Shown: positions 3,127 to 63,971 of the stretch, in pieces
Layout: each line of letters begins with the position of its first letter
Numbering within the stretch: position 1 is the first letter of the stretch
From: Geminicoccaceae bacterium
Lineage (GTDB): Bacteria; Pseudomonadota; Alphaproteobacteria; Geminicoccales; Geminicoccaceae
NCBI GenBank assembly: GCA_025054575.1
Contig: JANWZN010000002.1
Span: 1 to 64,000 of the forward strand
Reading direction: 5' to 3'
DNA: 64,000 nucleotides
Notes under the pieces: generated by a model
Told to the model about the DNA's origin: nothing
Database searches by the model: none
What the model saw: the letters and a program-made list of their open reading frames with translations, nothing else
Position numbers and translations under genes: made by a program

Positions 3127-4563
3127 TCAGACGAGGCTCGGCTCGGCGGCGAGCAGGCTCTCGAGCCGGACCCAGCCCTGGGTGCTCGCTGCGGCCGCGA
3201 GCGGTGCGGTGCTGCCGTCGGCGAACTCGAGCAGCTCGACGCCGCGCAGCAGGGCGAGCTGCCCCTCGCCCGGCTGGCGGACGATCGCCGCGTCGCCGGC
3301 CACCCGGATCCGGAAATCGCCCGGATCGCCGGGGAGGACGACCGTGTCGGTTCCGGCGCCGCCCAGGATGGTGTCGAGGCCGCGGCTCAGGAAGATTCGG
3401 TCGTTGCCGGCGCCCGCGTCGATCACGTCGATCCCCGGCCCGCCGTCGAGGACGTCGTTGCCGCTGCCGCCCTCGAGCCGGTCCGCACCGGACCCGCCAT
3501 GGAGCCGGTTCGCCTGGTCGTTGCCGAGCAGACGATCGGGCCCGCGGCCGCCGAGCACGACCTCGAGGGCGCCGTCCCCGGCCTCGAGCGTGTCGCCCCT
3601 GGCGCTGCCGAGGACGAAGCGGGTGCCGGCCGGCAGGGACAGCCAGCGTTCGGGCTCGCCCAGCCGATCCTCGACGCCGGGCACGATCCGCTCGGCCTCG
3701 CTCAAGAGGAGTGCGGTGTCGCCGTAGACCGCGAACTGGTGTTCGATCTTGAGCGCCGGGTCGAGGGCCGCGGCCAGGATCTCCTCGGGCGTGTCGAGGT
3801 CTTGTGGCTGGAAATCGGGGAGGGTCGACTCGGGTCGGTCGACACGCGCGTCGACGCCCTCGCGACGGACCCCGAAGAAGGCGAAGAGCGGGCTCAGATC
3901 GGAGAGCCGCGCCACGAAGTCGTCGCTGTGGACGATGTGCAGCATGTCGTCGAAGCTGCTCGTGCCGCGCGAGCCCGGTTGGCCGAAGGTGATCGTCTCG
4001 CTGATCGCGGCGAGCGGCGTGGGTGCCACCACCGCATGAGTGAGCTGCTCGGCGATGATCCCGCCGAGGCTGTGACCGGTGAGCAGGATCCGCTCGACTC
4101 CGTTCGCCGGGTTGCCCGCATACTGCAACGCAGCCACGACCAGGGGCGCGTGGGCAGCGGCGTAAGCGTCCCAGCCGAACCTGCCCGTCGTCGGATCGAA
4201 GCCGCCCTGGAAGGCGAATTCGCGATCGCCCTCGTCGGTCCCGCGGAAGCTGATCGCGAGCGTCTTCAGGCCCTCGAGCTCGCCCACGTAGACATGCGCG
4301 GCGCTCGTGATCGGGCGCAAATTCTCCGGGGCGAAGCCCGAGAGATCGACGAGCTGAACGCCGTTAGGCGCGAGCGAGCCGAGCTGGAGCGGAACCCAGC
4401 CGCGCATCGGCGCGGTGCCGAGGAACGAATCCTTCACCTTGTAGAAAGGTGTATCGAAATAGGCGTCGTTGCTGAGCGCCGCCGCTTCGACCAAGAGCGG
4501 GTTGTCGACGATACCGTCGGGGATGATCTTCTTGCCCTTGACCCTGACCTCTTCGCTTGCCAT
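3127..4563 (-). CDS. Secreted RTX lipase-like protein
   Basis: 478-residue probable extracellular esterase/lipase of the class 3 type, joined to an RTX calcium-binding domain. The nucleophile elbow GHSLGG lies at residues 163-168 (Ser165), an RGTD oxyanion-type motif at 107-110, and candidate acid and base residues at Asp214/215 and His275. Nonapeptide repeats of the GGxGxDxLxGG kind occupy about 316-408, followed by a C-terminal tail that would act as an uncleaved type I secretion signal. There is no N-terminal signal peptide, which fits type I secretion. No HlyB/HlyD/TolC genes lie nearby, so the exporter is elsewhere. Substrate is unknown. Confidence 0.85.
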   Translation of the reverse strand: MASEEVRVKGKKIIPDGIVDNPLLVEAAALSNDAYFDTPFYKVKDSFLGTAPMRGWVPLQLGSLAPNGVQLVDLSGFAPENLRPITSAAHVYVGELEGLKTLAISFRGTDEGDREFAFQGGFDPTTGRFGWDAYAAAHAPLVVAALQYAGNPANGVERILLTGHSLGGIIAEQLTHAVVAPTPLAAISETITFGQPGSRGTSSFDDMLHIVHSDDFVARLSDLSPLFAFFGVRREGVDARVDRPESTLPDFQPQDLDTPEEILAAALDPALKIEHQFAVYGDTALLLSEAERIVPGVEDRLGEPERWLSLPAGTRFVLGSARGDTLEAGDGALEVVLGGRGPDRLLGNDQANRLHGGSGADRLEGGSGNDVLDGGPGIDVIDAGAGNDRIFLSRGLDTILGGAGTDTVVLPGDPGDFRIRVAGDAAIVRQPGEGQLALLRGVELLEFADGSTAPLAAAASTQGWVRLESLLAAEPSLV

Positions 4564-4651
4564 GCGCTCCTCCCCGGGGAACCGAACATCGTCTCTCGGT
4601 TATCATGGAACGATTGTGGCCGGGGTGCGGCGGGTAGTCGCAAGGCGACGC

Positions 4652-4673
4652 ATCGTGGCGTGGGCGCCACGAT
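4652..4673 (-). terminator. Inverted repeat 3' of the sulfur transporter gene
   Basis: A perfect 9-bp inverted repeat (ATCGTGGCG, 4-nt loop, CGCCACGAT) starts 6 nt past the stop of the transporter gene on the minus strand. There is no U-run after it, so it is at best a weak or factor-assisted terminator, or an mRNA 3' stabiliser. Confidence 0.3.
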
Positions 4674-4678
4674 CCCGC

Positions 4679-5761
4679 TCAGCGCGCCGCCAACGCGAAA
4701 TCCGCGCTCGCCGAGCGCTCGCGGTCGACCAGCCAATGGGTGAGGCCGGCCCCGACCCACATGAAGAACAAGGCCAACCACGCCGCGGTCGCGAACACCG
4801 CACCACCCGAGACGCCGGCACCGACCGCGCAGCCGCCCGCCAGCATCGCCCCGAAGCCCATCATCGCCGCCCCGAGGATGTAGCGGCGCATGCTCTGGCC
4901 GTCTTTGAACCCTTGGAGCTCGAGCTCCCGGGCCAAGAGCGCGGCGAGGAAGGACCCCAGGAACACGCCCGGGACGAGGCCCGTGTCGAAGTCGATGGTT
5001 TGCGTCGAAGGGGCGAGAACGAGCATCAGCATGTCGGCCGAGGGACCGCTGAAGCTGATGCTCTTGATCGGCATCGGCTCGAACGACGCGGCGGCGAGCG
5101 CGCCCGTGAACCACCAGGCGGCGGCCACGGCCGTGCCGACGCCGGCCCCGCCGATCCAGCCCCAGGGGCCGATGCGGTTCCTGGCGCCGACGACCGCGGC
5201 CACGGCGATCGCGACGAGGCCGATCGCGAGCCCGGAGCGATGATCGAGACGGAGCAGGCTCAAGAGGTCGGCGACCTCCGGTCCTTCGACGACCCAGAGC
5301 CCGGCCAGGCCGTCGCGGACCGGGGCGAGCGCGCCGCGCAACGAGGCCTGGGCGACGACGGCGAAGACGAGCCCCGAGAGCAACGCCCGGAGGTTGCCAT
5401 TGGCCGACAGCACGAGAAGCCGGGAGGGGCAGCCCCGAGTCAAGATCATGCCGGCGCCGACCATGAGCCCGCCCAGGATCGCTCCCGAAACGCTGGCGCG
5501 CGGCGCGAGCTGGCGCGCGGCCGAAAGGTCGGCCACACCGGCCAGCAGGACGAGCTGGGTGAGGGCGACGGCGGCACCGAACGCGAGCAGCCAGATCGCC
5601 ACTTTGGCGCCGAGCGTGCCCTCGCTGAACTCGATCACCGCCGAGCGCATGCAGAACCGCGAGCGCTGGGCCATGGCCCCGAACAGCAAGCCGATCAGCA
5701 GGCCGCCCAGCACGGCCGTCGACGGCTCGCCCAGGCGATCGACGAGAAGCTCGAGGCCCAT
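4679..5761 (-). CDS. YeeE/YedE family thiosulfate/sulfur transporter
   Basis: Inner-membrane protein of 360 residues with about nine to ten hydrophobic helices, belonging to the YeeE/YedE (TsuA) family that imports thiosulfate or related sulfur species. The three family cysteines that relay the substrate are visible at Cys37 (RSRFCMRSA), Cys111 (TRGCPSRL) and Cys311 (AGGCAVGAG). Length matches TsuA-type two-lobe members rather than the half-size proteins. A TusA-like partner (TsuB) is not adjacent. A TATAAT box and a palindrome lie just upstream, suggesting dedicated control, possibly by a sulfide or thiol sensor; that last point is inference. Confidence 0.88.
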   Translation of the reverse strand: MGLELLVDRLGEPSTAVLGGLLIGLLFGAMAQRSRFCMRSAVIEFSEGTLGAKVAIWLLAFGAAVALTQLVLLAGVADLSAARQLAPRASVSGAILGGLMVGAGMILTRGCPSRLLVLSANGNLRALLSGLVFAVVAQASLRGALAPVRDGLAGLWVVEGPEVADLLSLLRLDHRSGLAIGLVAIAVAAVVGARNRIGPWGWIGGAGVGTAVAAAWWFTGALAAASFEPMPIKSISFSGPSADMLMLVLAPSTQTIDFDTGLVPGVFLGSFLAALLARELELQGFKDGQSMRRYILGAAMMGFGAMLAGGCAVGAGVSGGAVFATAAWLALFFMWVGAGLTHWLVDRERSASADFALAAR

Positions 5762-5784
5762 GCGTCAACCCTCCGCGGCGCAGA

Positions 5785-5839
5785 ATCTACATTCTGTTCG
5801 AGTAGATCTTCGCTTTGCCGCACCACCGCTGTAATTATA
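5785..5839 (-). promoter_or_regulatory. Candidate promoter -10 box and palindromic operator for the sulfur transporter
   Basis: On the minus strand a perfect TATAAT (5839-5834) is followed about 26 nt later by the palindrome ATCTAC-N11-GTAGAT (5807-5785), which ends 23 nt before the transporter ATG. No good -35 box is seen at 16-18 nt. The palindrome would sit shortly downstream of the start of transcription, a position suited to a repressor. The cognate regulator is not in the window. Confidence 0.4.
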
Positions 5840-5903
5840 GGAAGCCGCGGGCGCCGACGCCAGAGCGCCTGGCGTCGCGCCGGCACCAGCGCGATGATCC
5901 GTC

Positions 5904-6125
5904 TCACTCGCGGGGCAGGAGGAAGATCGCGGTGCCCATGGCGAGGCTGCCGAAGGTCACGGCGAAGCCGGCCATGGCGAGCAGGAGCGTGAGCAGACCG
6001 TGCTCGGAAGCGAGCAGGAGCTCGCCGAGCCGGGCGACGTCGAACCAGAGAAGGGCCGCCAACAACATCCAGCCGACGATCACGCCGATCGCCGCGTTCT
6101 TGGCGAGGAACAACACGAGGCGCAT
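5904..6125 (-). CDS. Small two-helix membrane protein
   Basis: A 73-residue protein starting at an ATG at 6125, with two hydrophobic helices (about residues 9-29 and 43-69), a short Asp/Arg-containing loop between them, and a PRE tail. I do not recognise the family. It lies upstream of the sulfur transporter on the same strand and diverges from the GTPase-like gene with 51 nt between the two starts. Strong hydrophobic periodicity and lack of a better reading frame make it a likely real gene. Function unknown. Confidence 0.55.
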   Translation of the reverse strand: MRLVLFLAKNAAIGVIVGWMLLAALLWFDVARLGELLLASEHGLLTLLLAMAGFAVTFGSLAMGTAIFLLPRE

Positions 6126-51580: not shown

Positions 51581-53125
51581 ACCTTCTCCTCTCAGAAGCC
51601 TCTTCGCGGCTCGCGCACGCGCAGATCGGAGAGGCGCCGATCCGACCGGTGCTCCGGATACGGTGCGACCGAGCCTTCCCCGACATCCGAGGCCGTGCGC
51701 ATCGATGCCCTCTTTTCTTCGGGAATGCCCTTTCGGGCGGATAGGTTCGTCCGAGGTAGGAGCCCGCCGGGCCTGTCGTCGCCAGCCGGATGTCGGTCGA
51801 GGAGAACTTGGGCGAGTTTTGGGACGTTCGGCTCGGGGTTCGCCAAGCGTTCGGGGCCGACCACAGCCGCTCGCGGAGCGCGCGTCGATCGACGCCCGAG
51901 TGCCCGATGAGCAGTGTTAACGCATTCTTCAGCTTCACCCTTTAACGTCTCGTGCAGGCGCGCGCTGGCCGCGCGCGTCGAGGCGCTGCGGCTTGTGGAG
52001 ACGTTCTCGTGTCGACCTGCGGACCGGAATATTCGTCGGCGGACATTTCGCCTGTTCTTCCGCGGACGGAGTTCCGAGGGTTCGACCAGACGTGGTGTTC
52101 GCCTGGAGCCGCTGATGCGGCAGGTCGAGGGGACTTGTTTCGAGCTGGGTCCTTCGTGCTGGTGCGAGCGCGCAACAACGTTCCGATCGACTATTGGCTC
52201 TGCATGCTGCGCTCCGTCCATTTCAAGCCGAAGACGTGCCAACCCCGCATCGTTACGAGCCTACCGCCCCGCCTGTTTCCGAGGATACCTGCCCCGCCTC
52301 CAATAACTTTGCTGGGTTACATCAGCCGGCTGGTTGTCGCCCGCTTCGTTCGAGTAGCGTTCCCTTCGATCGTCGTGGCGGCATGAGGGGCCGGCCGGCA
52401 TGACGCCATCTCGAGAGCGACATCCATTTGATCGGAATTTTCGTTCCAAAGATCCGCCGTCGGAAACGACTGTGCAGTCAACCGCTCTTGTAAGGAAGCC
52501 GGTCGGGTCGGCAGCCGAAGAGAGAGGCGACCAATGCGTTTCTAGCATGCCGACGAGGACTCGGTACATTTTCGTACGTTGGTTGCTTCGTGCTTTTAAA
52601 GCCAGGAGAATAGCGGACAACGTCATAATTTACTCAAAGTCTATTCATCTTTTGACGAACCTTCTTGTTTCCGCCATTCGTGCGCTCGCGGGCCCAGCTT
52701 GTCCGGCACCGGGCGAGCTGCTCCCCCGGCTGCGCGACGCCATCATGTCGTTCGCATCGTTTGAGGCCACAGCCGAACCGAGCAGAGAGGCATTGTGCCT
52801 ACCAAATGGAACGAAGTCGCCGCAAGGCGGTGTAACGTCCATCGATGTCCCCTCGTGTTCTTGTCAGGATGCACGGCGCACTCATGCGACCTTCTTTTTT
52901 TCTCGGTGCGGCATTGTGTGCGGAGATGGCAATGCGCAGCTACTTTCAGCTCGTCTGGCCATGCCTGGCCATTGTGCGCTGCGCTTTAAGCGCGTTTTGT
53001 TGGCGATAATCTTACGCGCGGGTGGTGTCAGCAGCTTTGGCAGCGTTCCCGGTTTCGGCCATTGGTGGCGGGATACAGGATATTCCCGAAGTCGCGTATC
53101 CAGCCCGCAATCGTCAGCCAGCCAA
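51581..53125. other. 1.5-kb gap with no convincing gene, lower G+C toward its right end
   Basis: The stretch between the phosphohexomutase and the TPR gene has several overlapping open frames of 60-215 codons on both strands (for example 51592-52242 minus and 51952-52386 plus). None has recognisable protein features or a good ribosome site. From about 52400 the sequence is clearly poorer in G+C and rich in short T-runs. I see no tRNA, rRNA, riboswitch or terminator. It may carry a leader, promoters or decayed genes. Confidence 0.5.
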
Positions 53126-56100
53126 ATGGCCTGGTCGCTCGATCGGCAAAGCACTGTAGAATCCTTCCGCTCGCTTTGTGCAGCTGCGTCTTCTGTCTCA
53201 AGAGCCCAGGTTGTCTTTATAACTAGCGTTGCATCGATTTTTGCGATATTGGCGGCGAACGCACTGGCTGCCGAAGCAACAATGCGCATCATGGCGCATC
53301 CCCGGATAGTTCGGATCGTGGTCGAAGGAGAGCATGTCTCCGCTCGGCATTTCGAGCACAAGGGATCGGTGGCCAGGTTGAGCTTCGCGGAACCGGTACG
53401 CCTTTCCGTGCCGAGTGTACCGGCCGCGGCTCGGCCATGGCTCGCAGTCGCAGAGTTGCGCGAGGAGGGGCGGGTGCTGGCTCTTGCGCTCGGGCCTCAA
53501 GTGCGTGCCCAGCTTGGGCCAGCGCAAGCTGGGAGGGTTGTCATCGATCTTGAAATGGACGAGGCCGGGCGCGAGCCGAGTTCCAGGCCGGGAGGAGGGG
53601 CGGGTCAGACCAACACCGCATCATTGCGTGTCCGGCTAGGTCGCCACCGAGAACACTGGCGTATTGTGTTAGAAGGCGAAGCGAGCGCGACTCTGGTGGC
53701 TCGCCCCGGAGCGGCCCGCCTGGACCTTTTCGGGCCACCGACGTTGCTTGCCGAGCTCGCCCAGCGCGTTTCGGGGCTGGGCGACCCGATACTCGGTACC
53801 ACTCTCGACCAGCAGAGCCTGACCGTGCGCCTTTCGCCAGGAGTAATGGCTCGGCTTCGGCAAGCGAAGCCAAACGAAGTCGTCGTAGATTTGGTACCCT
53901 CTGGCCGAATGCTCGCGCGTCCCCCGGTCGTGAGTACCAATTCCGGCGAGCGAGTGTCGTCCGGGTCCGATCGAACGGGTAGACCGCCTGCGGCCGTGTC
54001 GACTGCTGTTGGTCAGACGTCGGACGAAGCCGAGCCTCGAGGACTCGGCGCACGGCCCGATCGTGCTCCGGACGCAGTCGGTGCTCCTTGTCGCGCGGAT
54101 GCAGGTGAGCGATTCCTGTGCATCCGGGGCCGCATCGGCGCCGAAGAGGCCGACTTATGGCTAATCGCCGAGCCGCGTCCCCGTATTGCTGCGTTTACAC
54201 GCGGTGGCTCGGTCTGGATCGTGCTGGACCGGGTTCTCGATGAAACCGACTTCGATCTCGCCGGGGTCGGCAGCAATAACGCTATTAGCGATTTGAAGTA
54301 TCATAGCCTTTCTAATGCGACGGTGCTCGAGCTCCAGCACAAGCGGCCTTTTTTTCCGGACGTCTCTGCAGACGCGAAGGGGTGGCGTCTTTCGCTACGG
54401 CCGGATTCCGCGCTTCGTGCTGTCGAGGAGGCGCAAGTCGCACGGCTGGCGGACCCGCCGAGCCTTTCCATCGCGACGCCGGGAAAGCCTACAATTCTGC
54501 CTTCGCGCCTGGTTGGAAGTGATTTGGTCGTGATTACGACCGATGCCGCGGCGGCACTCCCCGAACCAAGGCGCCTCGTCGACCTCGAGTTCCTCGCGAG
54601 CGGCCGAGGGGTGGTGTGGCGACCGGCGGCCGACGACCTGGAGATGCGCAGTAGCTCCGAGCAGCTGGTTGTCTCTCGCGAAGGCGGCCTCAATCTCGAT
54701 TTTCGCGACCATCGGGCAATGCACGCTGCCGTCGGTAGCACCGGCGCAGGGAAAACAAGCTCCAACCTGGCGACCACGCCGAACAACGACAGGCCCGGTG
54801 TCGTTCCTCGAGCGCACTTGGAACAAGGGGAGGGAGCAGTACGCCCAGAGATTGTCTCCCGGGACCGAAAGTCTAATAGAGCACAACTTTCGGTCGGCTC
54901 GATCGATCGCGGCTCGGTTGCGAGCGTCAACGGCAAAGCGCATGGCACTGATGCGCAAAAAGAGCTCGGACTCGCGCTTTCGCCTGCGCGGCAGCTCGAA
55001 GTGCCCTCGTCCGCGCCTGTGGATACAATCGCTCGCACAGATGGCGCGCACACGTGGAGCAGAAGTGCCGAAGCCATGATGGGCACGCCGCCGGGAGGCA
55101 CCACGGCGACGCCCAGCCTCGTAAGCGAAACGCCTAGTGGTCGTTCTGGCCGGGAGACGACCGATAGCGCGGGAGCGCCGGCGACGTTACCACCGCGGCG
55201 TCTTCTGTCGAACTCGCCCGGGGCCGGGGACGATCGTTTGCAGTCAGCGGTCGCCGAATCCGGGGCGCCAGCATTCCCTGCGTTAAAAGAGCGCCCGCTC
55301 GCGAAGCCGTCAGGCGAACCGGTGATCGGGGCCCAACAGGCTCGCGGCTTTGGCACCAGCGAGGAGGCGATGCGGGCCCGAGGTAGAAAACCGCCGGCGC
55401 ATCAAGCTTCGACGTCGCCGATCGGACTCGCCCGCAGAAAAGTCGAGCCGGAGCCGTTGCTGGCGCAAAGGCGGGCAGAACTCCTCGAGCGGCGAGCTCG
55501 TGCCGACGCAGACGAGCGGGTGGCGCTGGGCATCGAACTCGCTCGTATCGAGCTCGGACGCGGGCGAGCCGCGGAGGGGCTGGTGTTTCTCGATGTATCG
55601 ACCTCGGTGTTCGATCCCGATACGGAGCCACCGTCTGACGTGGCTGTCCGCGCTCTCACCGGCGTGGCCGGTATCCTTCTCGGCCGCGCCGAGCCTGCCG
55701 AGCGGCTCCTTGCGGACCAGAGGCTCGATGGCGATCCCGAGGCGGCCCTGTGGCGCGGTGTCGCCGCCGCATCGCGGCAGGAATGGGCACGAGCTGCGCG
55801 CGCTTTGACCGAGAGTGGCCGCTCCTTTCAGGCCTTGCCACCGGCCCTTCAGCGTCGTCTCGCGCCTATCGTGGGCCGCGTTCTCGTGGAGGACGGGCGG
55901 GCCAGTACAGCGCTTGCTCTGATCGAGCGCGTGCGTCGTCTCGATCCGGAGCCACACGAAATCCAGAAGCTCGTTCTCGTCGAAGGCCTCGCACGTGCTC
56001 GGGAGGGCGCAACCGCGGAAGCGCTCGCTGCGTTGAAGGAGGCTGGCGCGGGGCCCGATCGTACGACCGCCATCGAGGCCAACTATCGAAGCGCGCTGCT

Positions 56101-57088
56101 GCAATACACATCAGGGCGCAAGAACGCCGAGCAGGTATTGCAAGACCTCGAGCGGCAGCGATTGGCTTGGCGCGGTCATCCCATGGAAGCCGAGATGCTG
56201 GACGGGTTGACCCAAATGCAGCTCGCGACCGGCAAGCTAGTCGATGCGATGAGCACGGCGCGCGACCGTCGTGCGCGCCGACCCGACAGGCCAGCCTCCG
56301 AAATGGTCGCACTCCAGCTCGCCGAAAGTTTGCAGGCCGCGATCAACCGAGCTGTAGAAGGGGTCGGCGACCCGCTTGCGGCGTTGCGCGCACTTCGAAC
56401 GGAGCCCGATCTATTGCCGACTGGGGAGCGCGGCGCGGCGCTGGCTCGCGCTCTCGCCGACCGTTTGGCCCGCGACGGACTCCCCGCTAGCGCAGCGAGC
56501 GTATTGGAGGATCACGGGTTGCCGCGGGTCGAAGGGGCCGCGCGGGCCGAGCTGCTGCTCGACATCGCAGAGCTGCGGCTGCGAGCCGGCGAACCGGCCG
56601 AAGCTCGCGCGACGCTGGAACGACTCGAAGCAGGGGCGATGCGTGCAGCAGCGGTACGCGCCCGGGCGGAAGGCCTACACGCGGCGCTCCAGACCTCTTC
56701 GGCTACGTCCTCGGAAAGCGCGTCGCTTCGGACCTCGCCAGCCCAGATCCTGGAGGCGGCTTGGCAGGCGCGAGATTGGCCGACCGTGATCCACGCAGGT
56801 GAGCGCCTGCTCGCCGATGGGCCGCCGTCAATGACGGCAACTTGGACCGACACGGACAAGCGAACGGTATTGCTGCGAATGGCTTTGGCCTACGCTGCTC
56901 AGGGTGACAGGGAGACGGCGCGCGCTCTGCTCGCCAAGTATGCAGCGCTGTTGGGTGGGACGCCGGAAGCGATGCTGGCCGCGCTCATCACCGAGATGCG
57001 TGTTCCCACGGGTAACGCGACCGCGGTGGCGCGGGACCTCGACTCCGAGCTGGCAGATCTTCGCGCAGGGCTTTCGCTGGCGCGATGA
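53126..57088 (+). CDS. Very large secreted TPR protein with AMIN-like beta domains
   Basis: 1320 residues from the ATG at 53126. The open frame extends upstream to 52400, but that part is Cys/Ser-rich and noncoding-like. A signal-peptide-like segment (VVFITSVASIFAILAANALA) lies at about 32-51. Two or three beta-rich AMIN-like modules follow, each ending in VVIDLEM or VVVDLVPS (about 53-180 and 190-280, with a third near 340-440), then a long Ser/Thr/Pro-rich low-complexity region. The C-terminal 540 residues are alpha-helical repeats of TPR type (ALALIERVRRLDPEPHE, ALAYAAQGDRETARALLAKY). Function is not recognised; its place in a polysaccharide region suggests an envelope scaffold. G+C looks slightly lower than in neighbours. 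Confidence 0.7.
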   Translation: MAWSLDRQSTVESFRSLCAAASSVSRAQVVFITSVASIFAILAANALAAEATMRIMAHPRIVRIVVEGEHVSARHFEHKGSVARLSFAEPVRLSVPSVPAAARPWLAVAELREEGRVLALALGPQVRAQLGPAQAGRVVIDLEMDEAGREPSSRPGGGAGQTNTASLRVRLGRHREHWRIVLEGEASATLVARPGAARLDLFGPPTLLAELAQRVSGLGDPILGTTLDQQSLTVRLSPGVMARLRQAKPNEVVVDLVPSGRMLARPPVVSTNSGERVSSGSDRTGRPPAAVSTAVGQTSDEAEPRGLGARPDRAPDAVGAPCRADAGERFLCIRGRIGAEEADLWLIAEPRPRIAAFTRGGSVWIVLDRVLDETDFDLAGVGSNNAISDLKYHSLSNATVLELQHKRPFFPDVSADAKGWRLSLRPDSALRAVEEAQVARLADPPSLSIATPGKPTILPSRLVGSDLVVITTDAAAALPEPRRLVDLEFLASGRGVVWRPAADDLEMRSSSEQLVVSREGGLNLDFRDHRAMHAAVGSTGAGKTSSNLATTPNNDRPGVVPRAHLEQGEGAVRPEIVSRDRKSNRAQLSVGSIDRGSVASVNGKAHGTDAQKELGLALSPARQLEVPSSAPVDTIARTDGAHTWSRSAEAMMGTPPGGTTATPSLVSETPSGRSGRETTDSAGAPATLPPRRLLSNSPGAGDDRLQSAVAESGAPAFPALKERPLAKPSGEPVIGAQQARGFGTSEEAMRARGRKPPAHQASTSPIGLARRKVEPEPLLAQRRAELLERRARADADERVALGIELARIELGRGRAAEGLVFLDVSTSVFDPDTEPPSDVAVRALTGVAGILLGRAEPAERLLADQRLDGDPEAALWRGVAAASRQEWARAARALTESGRSFQALPPALQRRLAPIVGRVLVEDGRASTALALIERVRRLDPEPHEIQKLVLVEGLARAREGATAEALAALKEAGAGPDRTTAIEANYRSALLQYTSGRKNAEQVLQDLERQRLAWRGHPMEAEMLDGLTQMQLATGKLVDAMSTARDRRARRPDRPASEMVALQLAESLQAAINRAVEGVGDPLAALRALRTEPDLLPTGERGAALARALADRLARDGLPASAASVLEDHGLPRVEGAARAELLLDIAELRLRAGEPAEARATLERLEAGAMRAAAVRARAEGLHAALQTSSATSSESASLRTSPAQILEAAWQARDWPTVIHAGERLLADGPPSMTATWTDTDKRTVLLRMALAYAAQGDRETARALLAKYAALLGGTPEAMLAALITEMRVPTGNATAVARDLDSELADLRAGLSLAR

Positions 57089-59985: not shown

Positions 59986-61557
59986 GTGCAACACACGATC
60001 GACCAGTTCCTGGCGCTTCTGCGCCTCGTCCGCCGCGGCCGCTGGGCCTGCCTCGCGATCGCTTGGGCGGTAGCCGTGGTCGGCTGCTCGCTCGCCGTCC
60101 TCTGGCCGAGCCGGTACGAGAGCACGGCCCGGGTCTACGTCGACACCGACGGCATGCTCGGCCCGCTGCTCAAGGGCATCACGGTCGAGACGGACCTCAC
60201 CCGTCAGCTCGACATCTTCCAGCGCACCTTGCTCAGTCGTCCCAACCTGGAGAAGGTCATCGACAGCGCAGGGATCGCCCATCGAGCACCGGATCCGCTC
60301 GCCCGCGAGCGATTGCTGACCGAGCTCAAGAACGGCATCGGGGTCTCGTCGCAGGGCTGGAACCTGTTCACCGTCGCCTACCGCGACCGCGACCCCGCGA
60401 GCGCCCAGCGCGTCGTCCAAGCCCTGCTCGACATCTTCGTCGCGACCAATCTCGGCGTCAGCCGCGAGGACATGCTCGCGGCCCAGCGCTTCATCGACGA
60501 GCAGATCGCGATCCAGGGCCGGGCGCTCGACGAGGCGGAGCGGCGGCTCGCCGATTTCCAGAAGGCCAACGCCGGCTCGCTCCCGGGCGAGCAGGGCTAT
60601 TTCGCGAGTCTCCAGGAGACCCGCCGGCAGATCGCCGAGATCCAGCGCGAGCTCGACGCTGCTCGCGCCGAGCAGGCCGCGCTCCAGCGCCAGCTCGCGA
60701 CGGTGCCGACGACGGTGAGCGCGGCGCGCGCCGCCGTGAGCGGCGTCGACGGGGAGGGCCGTCGGGTCGCCGAGGAACTCGCGGCGCTCCGGCGACGGCT
60801 GCTCGAGCTTCGCTCGCGCTTGACCGACCGCCACCCCGACGTGCGCGCGACCGAAGAGGCGATCGCCGCGCTCGAGGGGCGGGCCGCGGGCAACGGCGAG
60901 CCGTCGTCGGTCGCGGTCTCGAACCCCGTCTACGAGCAGATCCGCGTCCGCATCGCGCAGAAGGAGGCCGAGATCGCGAACCATGCGAGCCGGCTCGCAC
61001 GGGCCGAGGAGCAGCTCCGGCGGCTGGAGGCACAAGGTCGCACTATCCCGGAGACCGAGGCCGAGCTGAAGCGCCTTACGCGCGATTACGAAGTGATCAA
61101 ACGCAACTACGAAGAGCTGGTCGCCCGGCGGGAATCGGCCAGGATCGCCGGCGAGGTCGACGCCCGCAACGAGCGCGTCGCGTTCCGGATCGTCGAGCCG
61201 CCGATCCTGCCGATCGTCCCGGCGAGCCCGCCCCGTCTCCTCCTGCTGCTCGCGGTGCCGGTCCTGGCCCTGGCCGCCGGCGTCGGCCTGGTTCTGGCGC
61301 GCGGCATCGTGGCCGATCCCTTCGACAGCGTGCGCAAGCTCCAGCGCGCCTACCCGCTGCGGGTTCTGGGCGCGGTCAGCGAGGTCGTCACGCCCGCCGC
61401 GCGGGTGCGCCGGCGCCGCGCCGATCTCGCCTTCGCGGCGGCGACGGCCCTGCTCGTAGTCCTCGTGGCCGGCGTCGCGGTCGCCGAGCGGCTTCGTCTC
61501 ACCGCACCCGTGCGGGCAGCCTTGACCGAGAGATCGATCGGGAGCGGGCCGCGGTGA
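59986..61557 (+). CDS. Polysaccharide chain-length determinant (Wzz type, exosortase A-associated)
   Basis: 523-residue inner-membrane copolymerase. N-terminal helix about 25-43, a periplasmic domain with VYVDTDGMLGPLLKGITVE and FQRTLLSRPNLEKVID typical of the exosortase A chain-length family, then a long coiled coil (about 170-380). Two C-terminal helices follow (about 408-430 and 483-500). The GTG at 59986 is used; the last codons overlap the kinase gene start by 4 nt (GTGA). It controls polymer length with the tyrosine-kinase-like ATPase encoded next. Confidence 0.9.
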   Translation: MQHTIDQFLALLRLVRRGRWACLAIAWAVAVVGCSLAVLWPSRYESTARVYVDTDGMLGPLLKGITVETDLTRQLDIFQRTLLSRPNLEKVIDSAGIAHRAPDPLARERLLTELKNGIGVSSQGWNLFTVAYRDRDPASAQRVVQALLDIFVATNLGVSREDMLAAQRFIDEQIAIQGRALDEAERRLADFQKANAGSLPGEQGYFASLQETRRQIAEIQRELDAARAEQAALQRQLATVPTTVSAARAAVSGVDGEGRRVAEELAALRRRLLELRSRLTDRHPDVRATEEAIAALEGRAAGNGEPSSVAVSNPVYEQIRVRIAQKEAEIANHASRLARAEEQLRRLEAQGRTIPETEAELKRLTRDYEVIKRNYEELVARRESARIAGEVDARNERVAFRIVEPPILPIVPASPPRLLLLLAVPVLALAAGVGLVLARGIVADPFDSVRKLQRAYPLRVLGAVSEVVTPAARVRRRRADLAFAAATALLVVLVAGVAVAERLRLTAPVRAALTERSIGSGPR

Positions 61558-63971
61558 CCGAAGTGGCGGAACGCGTCCAGCCGGCCGACCGTGCGGCCCG
61601 ACCCCCGCTTCTGGTGCGGGCGGCCGAGCGGCTCGTCGACCCGTTGGCGCCGATCGAGGCGCCTCCCTCGGCCGTCCGGCCGCGCGCGGCCAAGGCCGGA
61701 AGCGGGACGCCGCCGGTCCGGCATACCGCGCCGGATGCTGGCCGCCCGCCCCGCGTCCGCCGACACCGAATCGATCGCGACAGGCTCGTGGCGCGCGGTT
61801 TTTTGGATCCTTCGGGCGGTCGGACCGCACTGGGCGAGGAGCTTCGGCTCGTCAAACGGCTCCTCGTCGAGCGCGCGCTCGAGCCGTCGGCGCGGCCGCG
61901 CGAACGGGTGATCGCGGTCACGAGCGCACTCGCGGGCGAGGGCAAGACCTTCATCGCCGTCAATTTGGCGTTGAGCTTGAGCCTCGAACGCGAGGCTCGC
62001 GTCGTGCTGATCGATGCCGATCCGATCAAGGCCGCGGCGGTCGAGACGCTCGGGGTGCCGCGCGCGCCAGGGCTCGCGGAGCTCCTCGGCCCGCAGCCCG
62101 CGGATCCGGCCGAGCTGTTCGTGCGCACGGATCTCGAACGCCTCACGGTCCTCGCCCCCGGCGCGCCGGACCCGCGGTTCACCGAGCTGCTCTCGAGCCG
62201 CGGGATGCGCGCGGTCCTCGAGGCGATGCTGAGTGCGGATCCGAGCCTCGTCGTGGTGATCGACTCACCGCCCCTGCTCGCCAGCTCCGAGGCGCAGGCG
62301 GTCGCGCATCTGGCCGGTCAGACCGTGCTCGTGGTTGCAGCCGAGACCACGCCTCGGCAGGCGGTCGATCGGGCGATCGCGCTGATCGCCGAGCACACCG
62401 AGGTCGAACTCCTCTTGAACCGTGCGCCGGGCCGCGCGGCCGACGCCTATGCGGCCTACGCGCGCGGTGCGACCAACGCCAACGGATCGGCCGGCGCTAA
62501 CCGGATCGCGACCCGCGCCGGTGCCGCCGCCGGCTGGCTCGCGCTGTTGGCCCCGCCGGTTGCCCTCGGCAATTGGCAGCTCGTGCCGCGAATCGAGCTC
62601 GGCACCGCAGTCACCGACAATGTTCGCCTCGAAGCGGGTTCGAAGGCCGAGGCCGACCTCGCGGGTGCGGTCGGCGTCGGGCTCAGGGCGGAAAGCGAGC
62701 GTGGCCCGGTGCGCGGCCGCGTCGACTACGCCGCCAAGCAGTTCGCCTATCTGAACGATCGCGACGCCGCTGACCTTCGCCACGCGCTCGACGGGACCGT
62801 CCGTGCAACGCTGCTCGACGATCGCCTCTATCTCGACCTGGTCGGAGAGATCGGGGAGGTCTTCGAGAGTGGCAGCCGGCTGCGGCCGCGCTCCGAGTTC
62901 GCCGACTCGGACGCGCGCAGCACACGCATCGCAGGGTCCTTCAGTCCCTTCCTGGTGGCGAGCCTCGGCGAGCTCGGTGAAGGCACGCTGCGCTACCGCT
63001 ACACCGAGGTCGCCTATCTGGACGATGCGGCCGGCCTCGCCGACGCCCGCAGCCACACCTTGGTCGGGCTCGTCAGTCGGCCGAGCGGCGTGCAGCGGCT
63101 CGGCTGGACCGCTTCGCTCGCCGCCGACCGCGCGGATTTCGCGAGCTCCGCTCAAACACCGGCCCGCTCGACCGACACCGCGCTCGCGACGGTCGATCTC
63201 AGCGTCCCGCTTTCGCCCGCGACCGCACTCCTGGCCGGCCTGGGCTGGTCCTACATGGACGACGAGCTGCTGCGGGACGGGGGCGGCAGCGATCCGTTCT
63301 GGCGCATCGGCGCCGAGCTGCGGCCCGGTGCCGGCCTTTCGGCGCGCGGCACGATCGGCCAAGCCTTCGGTCACCCGAGCGCCGAAGCCCGCCTCGATCT
63401 CCAGCTGGCGCCGCGCACCACGCTGCGGCTCGGTTACGAGCAGGGGCTCCGGACCCGGTTCGACGAGACGCGCTCGGTCCTGACCGACCCCGAGCGGCTC
63501 ACGCGCGAACGCGAGAGCGAGGACCCGGAGGCGCGGGTTCGGGCGCGGCTGATCGAGGAGCTCCGGCCGCGGCAGACCGTCCCGGTCGACGACAGGCCCA
63601 CGCTCGTCCGCCGTGGCCGGCTCGCCTTGAGCTACGAGCGCGAGCGCACGCTGGCACTGGTCGGTGGTTACCTCCAGTCCTCGCGTCCCGAAGCGGGTGG
63701 CGAGAGCAAGCTCGAAGGCGGCCTCGAGGCCGGCTTGATCCGCCGGCTCGATCGCCGCCACGGCCTCGAGCTCAGGGTCTCCTACGACCGTCGCCGGCTC
63801 GAGGAAGAAGACCGCACGGCCGACGATGTCGGTGCCACGCTGATCGTGCGCAGGGAGATCGGCGAGAGGGCCCGGATCGAGCTGGGCTACGACTTCCTCA
63901 AGCGCTTCACGCCCGGGGACGGCGACGTCGTCGCCAACACCTTCTTTCTGCGCGCGGTACGCGAGTTCTGA
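61554..63971 (+). CDS. Fusion of tyrosine-kinase-like ATPase (CpsD/Wzc type) and outer-membrane beta-barrel protein
   Basis: 805 residues in one uninterrupted frame. Residues about 85-305 form the Mrp/BY-kinase ATPase: Walker A LAGEGKTFIAVNLALSLS, Walker A' VVLIDADPIKAA, Walker B VVVIDSPPLL. A short Tyr-containing segment follows (DAYAAYARG, about 297-305). Residues about 315-333 are hydrophobic and signal-like (AAAGWLALLAPPVALG). The rest (about 337-805) matches the exosortase A-type outer-membrane protein: repeated amphipathic strands, LGTAVTDNVRLEAG, and a final Phe (VREF). Normally these are two separate genes. There is no ATG, GTG or usable start between the two halves. Start is the GTG at 61554. 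Confidence 0.82.
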   Translation: MTEVAERVQPADRAARPPLLVRAAERLVDPLAPIEAPPSAVRPRAAKAGSGTPPVRHTAPDAGRPPRVRRHRIDRDRLVARGFLDPSGGRTALGEELRLVKRLLVERALEPSARPRERVIAVTSALAGEGKTFIAVNLALSLSLEREARVVLIDADPIKAAAVETLGVPRAPGLAELLGPQPADPAELFVRTDLERLTVLAPGAPDPRFTELLSSRGMRAVLEAMLSADPSLVVVIDSPPLLASSEAQAVAHLAGQTVLVVAAETTPRQAVDRAIALIAEHTEVELLLNRAPGRAADAYAAYARGATNANGSAGANRIATRAGAAAGWLALLAPPVALGNWQLVPRIELGTAVTDNVRLEAGSKAEADLAGAVGVGLRAESERGPVRGRVDYAAKQFAYLNDRDAADLRHALDGTVRATLLDDRLYLDLVGEIGEVFESGSRLRPRSEFADSDARSTRIAGSFSPFLVASLGELGEGTLRYRYTEVAYLDDAAGLADARSHTLVGLVSRPSGVQRLGWTASLAADRADFASSAQTPARSTDTALATVDLSVPLSPATALLAGLGWSYMDDELLRDGGGSDPFWRIGAELRPGAGLSARGTIGQAFGHPSAEARLDLQLAPRTTLRLGYEQGLRTRFDETRSVLTDPERLTRERESEDPEARVRARLIEELRPRQTVPVDDRPTLVRRGRLALSYERERTLALVGGYLQSSRPEAGGESKLEGGLEAGLIRRLDRRHGLELRVSYDRRRLEEEDRTADDVGATLIVRREIGERARIELGYDFLKRFTPGDGDVVANTFFLRAVREF

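Follow-up and report, generated by a model that had tools for sequence, protein, structure and literature searches.

An in-frame fusion of a tyrosine kinase and an outer-membrane beta-barrel, joined through a signal-peptide-like segment, is conserved in Geminicoccaceae

Gene fusions usually unite proteins of one compartment. The window analyzed here, a stretch of 64,000 nucleotides of contig JANWZN010000002.1 from Geminicoccaceae bacterium assembly GCA_025054575.1, contains an open frame on the forward strand (61554-63971; all features of the window given below lie on this strand) that joins a bacterial tyrosine kinase (BY-kinase), an internal signal-peptide-like segment and an outer-membrane beta-barrel in one predicted product of 805 amino acids. 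This locus raises the question of whether such a fusion is real and, if so, how a cytoplasmic half and an outer-membrane half could each reach its own compartment. The sequence-only reading of this DNA had proposed an in-frame kinase-barrel fusion, and our analysis bears it out: the frame runs uninterrupted through 805 codons from a GTG start to a TGA stop, and the same arrangement is repeated in nine genomes. Codon-position GC was coding-like all through the kinase/barrel junction. The GTG start shares bases with the TGA stop of the upstream TIGR03007 gene in a GTGA overlap.

The N-terminal part carries the hallmarks of a BY-kinase, namely Walker A, A' and B motifs, C-terminal tyrosines and a Wzc-like fold. 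Residues 85-289 (61806-62420) matched NCBIfam profile TIGR03018 (E 1.7e-49), although at 167.9 bits the match falls under the family cut-off of 230.65 bits, indicating a divergent relative; none of the Geminicoccaceae genomes among the relatives searched passes this cut-off. Walker A (ALAGEGKT, residues 125-132; 61926-61949), Walker A' (VVLIDAD, residues 150-156; 62001-62021) and Walker B (VVVIDSPP, residues 233-240; 62250-62273) are all present, with E129, G130, K131 and T132 of the first, V150, L152, D154 and D156 of the second, and D237, P239 and P240 of the third invariant across all nine fusions. The domain is followed by a YAAY tail (62448-62459) with Y299 and Y302, and every fusion has two to five tyrosines at this place. 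Fold comparison of the kinase gave matches to Wzc, CapAB, VpsO and BceF.

The C-terminal part, residues 340-805 (62571-63968), belongs to the outer-membrane beta-barrel family TIGR03016. The match over residues 340-784 scored 107.2 bits within the fusion and 109.4 bits for the barrel part alone (NCBIfam), exceeding the cut-off of 90.85 bits, and no other strong TIGR03016 match occurs in the window genome (G000). An AlphaFold model of the barrel alone (33 alignment rows; pLDDT of 87.5 and pTM of 0.83) contained 22 strand segments preceded by a short helix equivalent to residues 319-332, and the protein ends in REF, with the C-terminal aromatic residue of an outer-membrane barrel. A model of the full fusion, built from a nine-row alignment (mean pLDDT of 74.3 and pTM of 0.54), placed the kinase, a low-confidence linker, a helix at residues 315-332 and strands from residue 341 onward in that order. 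The best solved structural matches to the barrel were TonB-dependent receptors (TM of ~0.5, 10% identity), a modelled resemblance that points to the barrel fold and not to function, and searching the PDB with the barrel sequence gave no match.

To place the fusion among relatives, we searched 96 of them for the fused gene. Full-length, uninterrupted fusions were found in six (G005, G004, G001, G021, G017 and G030), including the complete single-contig genome G005, whose protein is 67% identical to that of the window. The fusions of G003 and G010 are uninterrupted up to the contig end and are truncated by contig ends alone, with the remaining second half of the G003 gene lying on another contig. 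Counting the window genome, this brings the fusion to nine Geminicoccaceae genomes, spread over four genera; named carriers include Geminicoccaceae bacterium KatS3mg117, HKST-UBA13, HKST-UBA14, SKYB19, HOT.CON.139, HR40 and HR39, and the other fusions share 29 to 66% identity with the window protein over the alignment. The sequence-only reading had named close relatives with two genes and a clear start codon at this spot as a finding that would refute the fusion; the outcome is the opposite, in that every genome of the window genome's genus that possesses the locus has the fused gene. G002, of the same genus, has neither the fusion nor a strong TIGR03016 match, and the locus is apparently absent from that species. 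These findings establish the kinase-barrel join as real and conserved. The architecture is new, and its component families were already known.

Trees of the two halves, inferred separately, support a single origin of the fusion. In the kinase tree (n = 98), the nine fusions and L022 formed one clade with support of 100/100 and L098 as its sister, and in a quick barrel tree (n = 46), eight fused barrels formed a clade with an SH-aLRT value of 100. In L098, the nearest unfused relative, the kinase stop and the barrel start overlap as ATGA (AAATGAGG), and the ancestral state was probably such a coupled gene pair. As the sequence-only reading had stated for known clusters, unfused relatives hold kinase and barrel genes side by side; apart from L067, all relatives checked outside the fusion clade have two genes. 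No certain independent fusion appeared among the compared loci or among the loci with both genes that were fetched in a class survey of 385 genomes, and a phylum survey of 398 genomes by open-frame length gave no frame of more than 636 amino acids outside the window genome. L067, from an Ectothiorhodospiraceae MAG, has a frame (~4046-6044) in which the kinase continues into the initial part of the barrel; the frame then breaks, on a contig that holds N's, and may be either an error or another fusion. L022 (G009:C69) belongs to the fusion clade, where it sits on a long branch, and comes from a genome with 7% contamination; it has lost the barrel and has a degraded Walker A, and its hydrophobic tail is kept and ends in a stop, directly followed by the start of a TIGR03015-like ATPase.

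The junction has the same layout in all nine fusions: the kinase, then two to five tyrosines, a variable linker, and a basic-hydrophobic-small-residue segment abutting the barrel. In the window, the linker (62460-62501) is followed by the signal-peptide-like segment, or leader, RIATR-AGAAAGWLALLA-PPVALG (residues ~317-339; 62502-62570), and the sequence across the putative cleavage site between G339 and N340 reads ...YAAYARGATNANGSAGANRIATRAGAAAGWLALLAPPVALG/NWQLVPRIEL. The presumed -1 site is a small residue in each of the nine fusions (ALG, ALA, VPG, AVA or ASA), and the leader lies where unfused barrels carry their signal peptide. Within the genus, pN/pS was 0.15/0.51 for the leader and 0.16/0.48 for the kinase, compared with 0.38/0.58 for the linker, indicating that constraint on the leader equals that on the kinase domain whereas the linker before it drifts. 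Hydropathy of the leader was moderate, with 12-residue windows ranking between the 89th and 99.8th percentiles of those in the same proteins and a mean of 1.89, slightly under the 2.11 of leaders of unfused barrels.

These observations suggest that the fusion is made as one precursor, a reading to which we assign a probability of about 0.7, in which a buried signal would direct the barrel to export via Sec, with signal peptidase I cutting near G339/N340. The N-terminal part would be a stand-alone-type BY-kinase, the kind partnered with a PCP-2b protein, that stays in the cytoplasm and acts on the adjacent TIGR03007 protein. The N-terminal signal peptide of the ancestral barrel gene would now lie between the tyrosine tail and the barrel. 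On emerging from the ribosome, this signal would engage Sec, with the kinase remaining on the cytoplasmic side (N-in/C-out); the barrel would cross to the periplasm, be released by signal peptidase I, be inserted into the outer membrane by Bam, and probably serve there as a polysaccharide exit porin. Supporting this reading are the single conserved frame, the identities of the domains, the single origin, the constrained leader and the lack of a conserved internal start. In the models, the leader helix and strand 1 are only ~10 residues apart, which is too short to span the periplasm, so an uncut product would be predicted to fail to reach the outer membrane with both halves in place. Counting against a polyprotein, bacterial signal peptides are nearly always N-terminal, and because the leader is only moderately hydrophobic, the efficiency of targeting behind a cytoplasmic domain of ~300 residues is uncertain. 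After cleavage, the signal helix may stay with the kinase as a C-terminal membrane anchor beside the tyrosine tail, an extension of the model that we hold tentatively and consider somewhat less likely to be right than wrong. If so, one segment would act as porin export signal, kinase tether and possible activity switch, and a cytoplasmic regulator and an outer-membrane exit would be synthesized in equal amounts.

The barrel might alternatively be translated separately, by internal initiation at a noncanonical linker codon such as CTG or the ATC at 62505, yielding a precursor that carries a conventional signal peptide at its N-terminus. The resemblance of the kept segment, with its basic n-region, to an N-terminal signal peptide, the probable descent from a coupled gene pair and a linker CTG common to L006, L007 and L009 are consistent with this possibility. 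Codon reading confirmed that the window gene has no stop and no ATG, GTG or TTG between the kinase and the leader, the first TTG (62547) lying within the leader. Six of the nine fusions likewise have no such codon before the leader, and no start codon, canonical or otherwise, occupies a fixed place across the nine; the ATC at 62505, which the sequence-only reading had singled out, is unconserved. Between kinase end and leader, the nine fusions together have three in-frame ATG, GTG or TTG codons, at differing places and none of them ATG, compared with the 15.2 that the averages of the individual genes would predict; this expectation disregards the hydrophilic make-up of the linker, so that the deficit is partly one of composition and only supportive. 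We found no conserved internal start or ribosome-binding site in the nine fusions, in which Shine-Dalgarno-like motifs were weak and unaligned. Selection should have retained the ancestral ATG if a separate start were needed. Internal initiation thus appears unlikely.

Less probable still is cleavage of the product within the cytoplasm or by a different protease, or redundancy of one half, the fusion then being chiefly a kinase whose tail anchors it to the membrane. The L022 gene, with its barrel gone, its hydrophobic C-terminal segment kept and its Walker A degraded, is consistent with this reading. However, both halves of the nine fusions are still under constraint, with barrel and kinase motifs intact, and the window genome has no other strong TIGR03016 match. 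An error of sequencing or assembly, or a recent mutation that lost a stop or start in the window genome alone, might be suspected in a draft of 429 contigs with a chimeric-looking contig end, but this reading was rejected as having almost no chance of being correct, since the same uninterrupted fusion is conserved in independently assembled relatives, including single-contig G005, and both halves share one origin.

The operon context further informs the likely roles of the two halves under the one-precursor reading. Upstream of the fusion lie genes for a polysaccharide co-polymerase or chain-length determinant (TIGR03007; 59986-61557), the presumed partner of the kinase, and for a short outer-membrane polysaccharide export (OPX) lipoprotein of 249 amino acids (TIGR03027; 59228-59977). 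The 169-position TIGR03027 model was matched to the C-terminus of the OPX protein, which is thus short, has no outer-membrane helix and is encoded together with a beta-barrel; it also matched EpsY (E 1.2e-38), under the cut-off. Class 3 OPX proteins have a median length of 256 amino acids (PMC9603273), and short OPX proteins that lack the outer-membrane helix act together with a beta-barrel porin (PMC9603273, PMC9601211). Tyrosine tails of BY-kinases extend into the active sites of their neighbors (PMC12004946). From this pairing and this tail behavior, the barrel probably acts as exit porin and the kinase probably as regulator of TIGR03007. Farther upstream, a 1562-amino-acid open frame (52400-57088) has an uncertain true start. 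Past the window, a TIGR03015-like ATPase frame (L207; G000:C222:63900-65298) continues, where the contig ends, as TsaE-like sequence; the TsaE-like match is located elsewhere in G005 and G001, and this contig end is possibly chimeric or a genuine rearrangement.

The barrel had been described as exosortase A-type, which stands by homology but not by genomic company. None of the nine fusion genomes matched the exosortase profile TIGR03109, and whole-genome searches with PF09721 gave no match in eight of the nine; G021 had one borderline partial match (26.2 bits against a cut-off of 25.7). The locus therefore apparently represents an XrtA-type locus kept without its sorting enzyme.

Across four genera, selection has kept a frame of which one half has to end up in the cytoplasm and the other in the outer membrane. 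Very probably, these bacteria synthesize a single precursor that is cut in two and so equips both ends of a sugar-polymer secretion machine. If this processing occurs as proposed, the gene would encode a natural bacterial polyprotein in which a buried signal peptide serves outer-membrane biogenesis, would allow a clean test of the way in which Sec and signal peptidase deal with a signal that follows a folded domain, and would support the view that polysaccharide kinase and exit porin are functionally linked. In the titles and abstracts shown by paper searches, nothing bore directly on TIGR03016 or TIGR03018, on a naturally occurring fusion of kinase and barrel, or on signal peptides at internal positions.

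Several known systems resemble the fusion locus in part. XrtA-type exopolysaccharide loci have the same families, which in L035 (KatS3mg117) lie in one run in the order TIGR03027, TIGR03007, fusion, TIGR03015, TIGR03006, TIGR03019 and TIGR03087, with the kinase (TIGR03018) immediately before the barrel (TIGR03016). The fusion locus differs in that kinase and barrel form one frame and, the borderline PF09721 match of G021 aside, in having no detected exosortase gene of the kind that defines the XrtA/PEP-CTERM sorting system. The BY-kinases Wzc, CapB, VpsO and BceF share the kinase fold, Walker A, A' and B motifs and tyrosine tail, but the tail of known BY-kinases is a free C-terminus (PMC12004946), whereas that of the fusion continues into the signal segment and barrel. 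Like EpsY-EpsX (WzaX-WzpX) of M. xanthus, the fusion locus combines a short OPX lipoprotein and a barrel in one operon; the EpsX-type barrel has 18 strands, in contrast to the 22 modeled for the fusion's barrel, which is translationally joined to the kinase. FbcH, the cytochrome b/c1 precursor of Bradyrhizobium, is a natural polyprotein with an internal signal sequence that is cut to release the exported half. By analogy, the fusion may be a bacterial polyprotein with an internal signal sequence cleaved in a comparable manner, but the two subunits united in FbcH both belong to the inner membrane and to the same complex, whereas the fusion described here joins a cytoplasmic kinase to an outer-membrane barrel.
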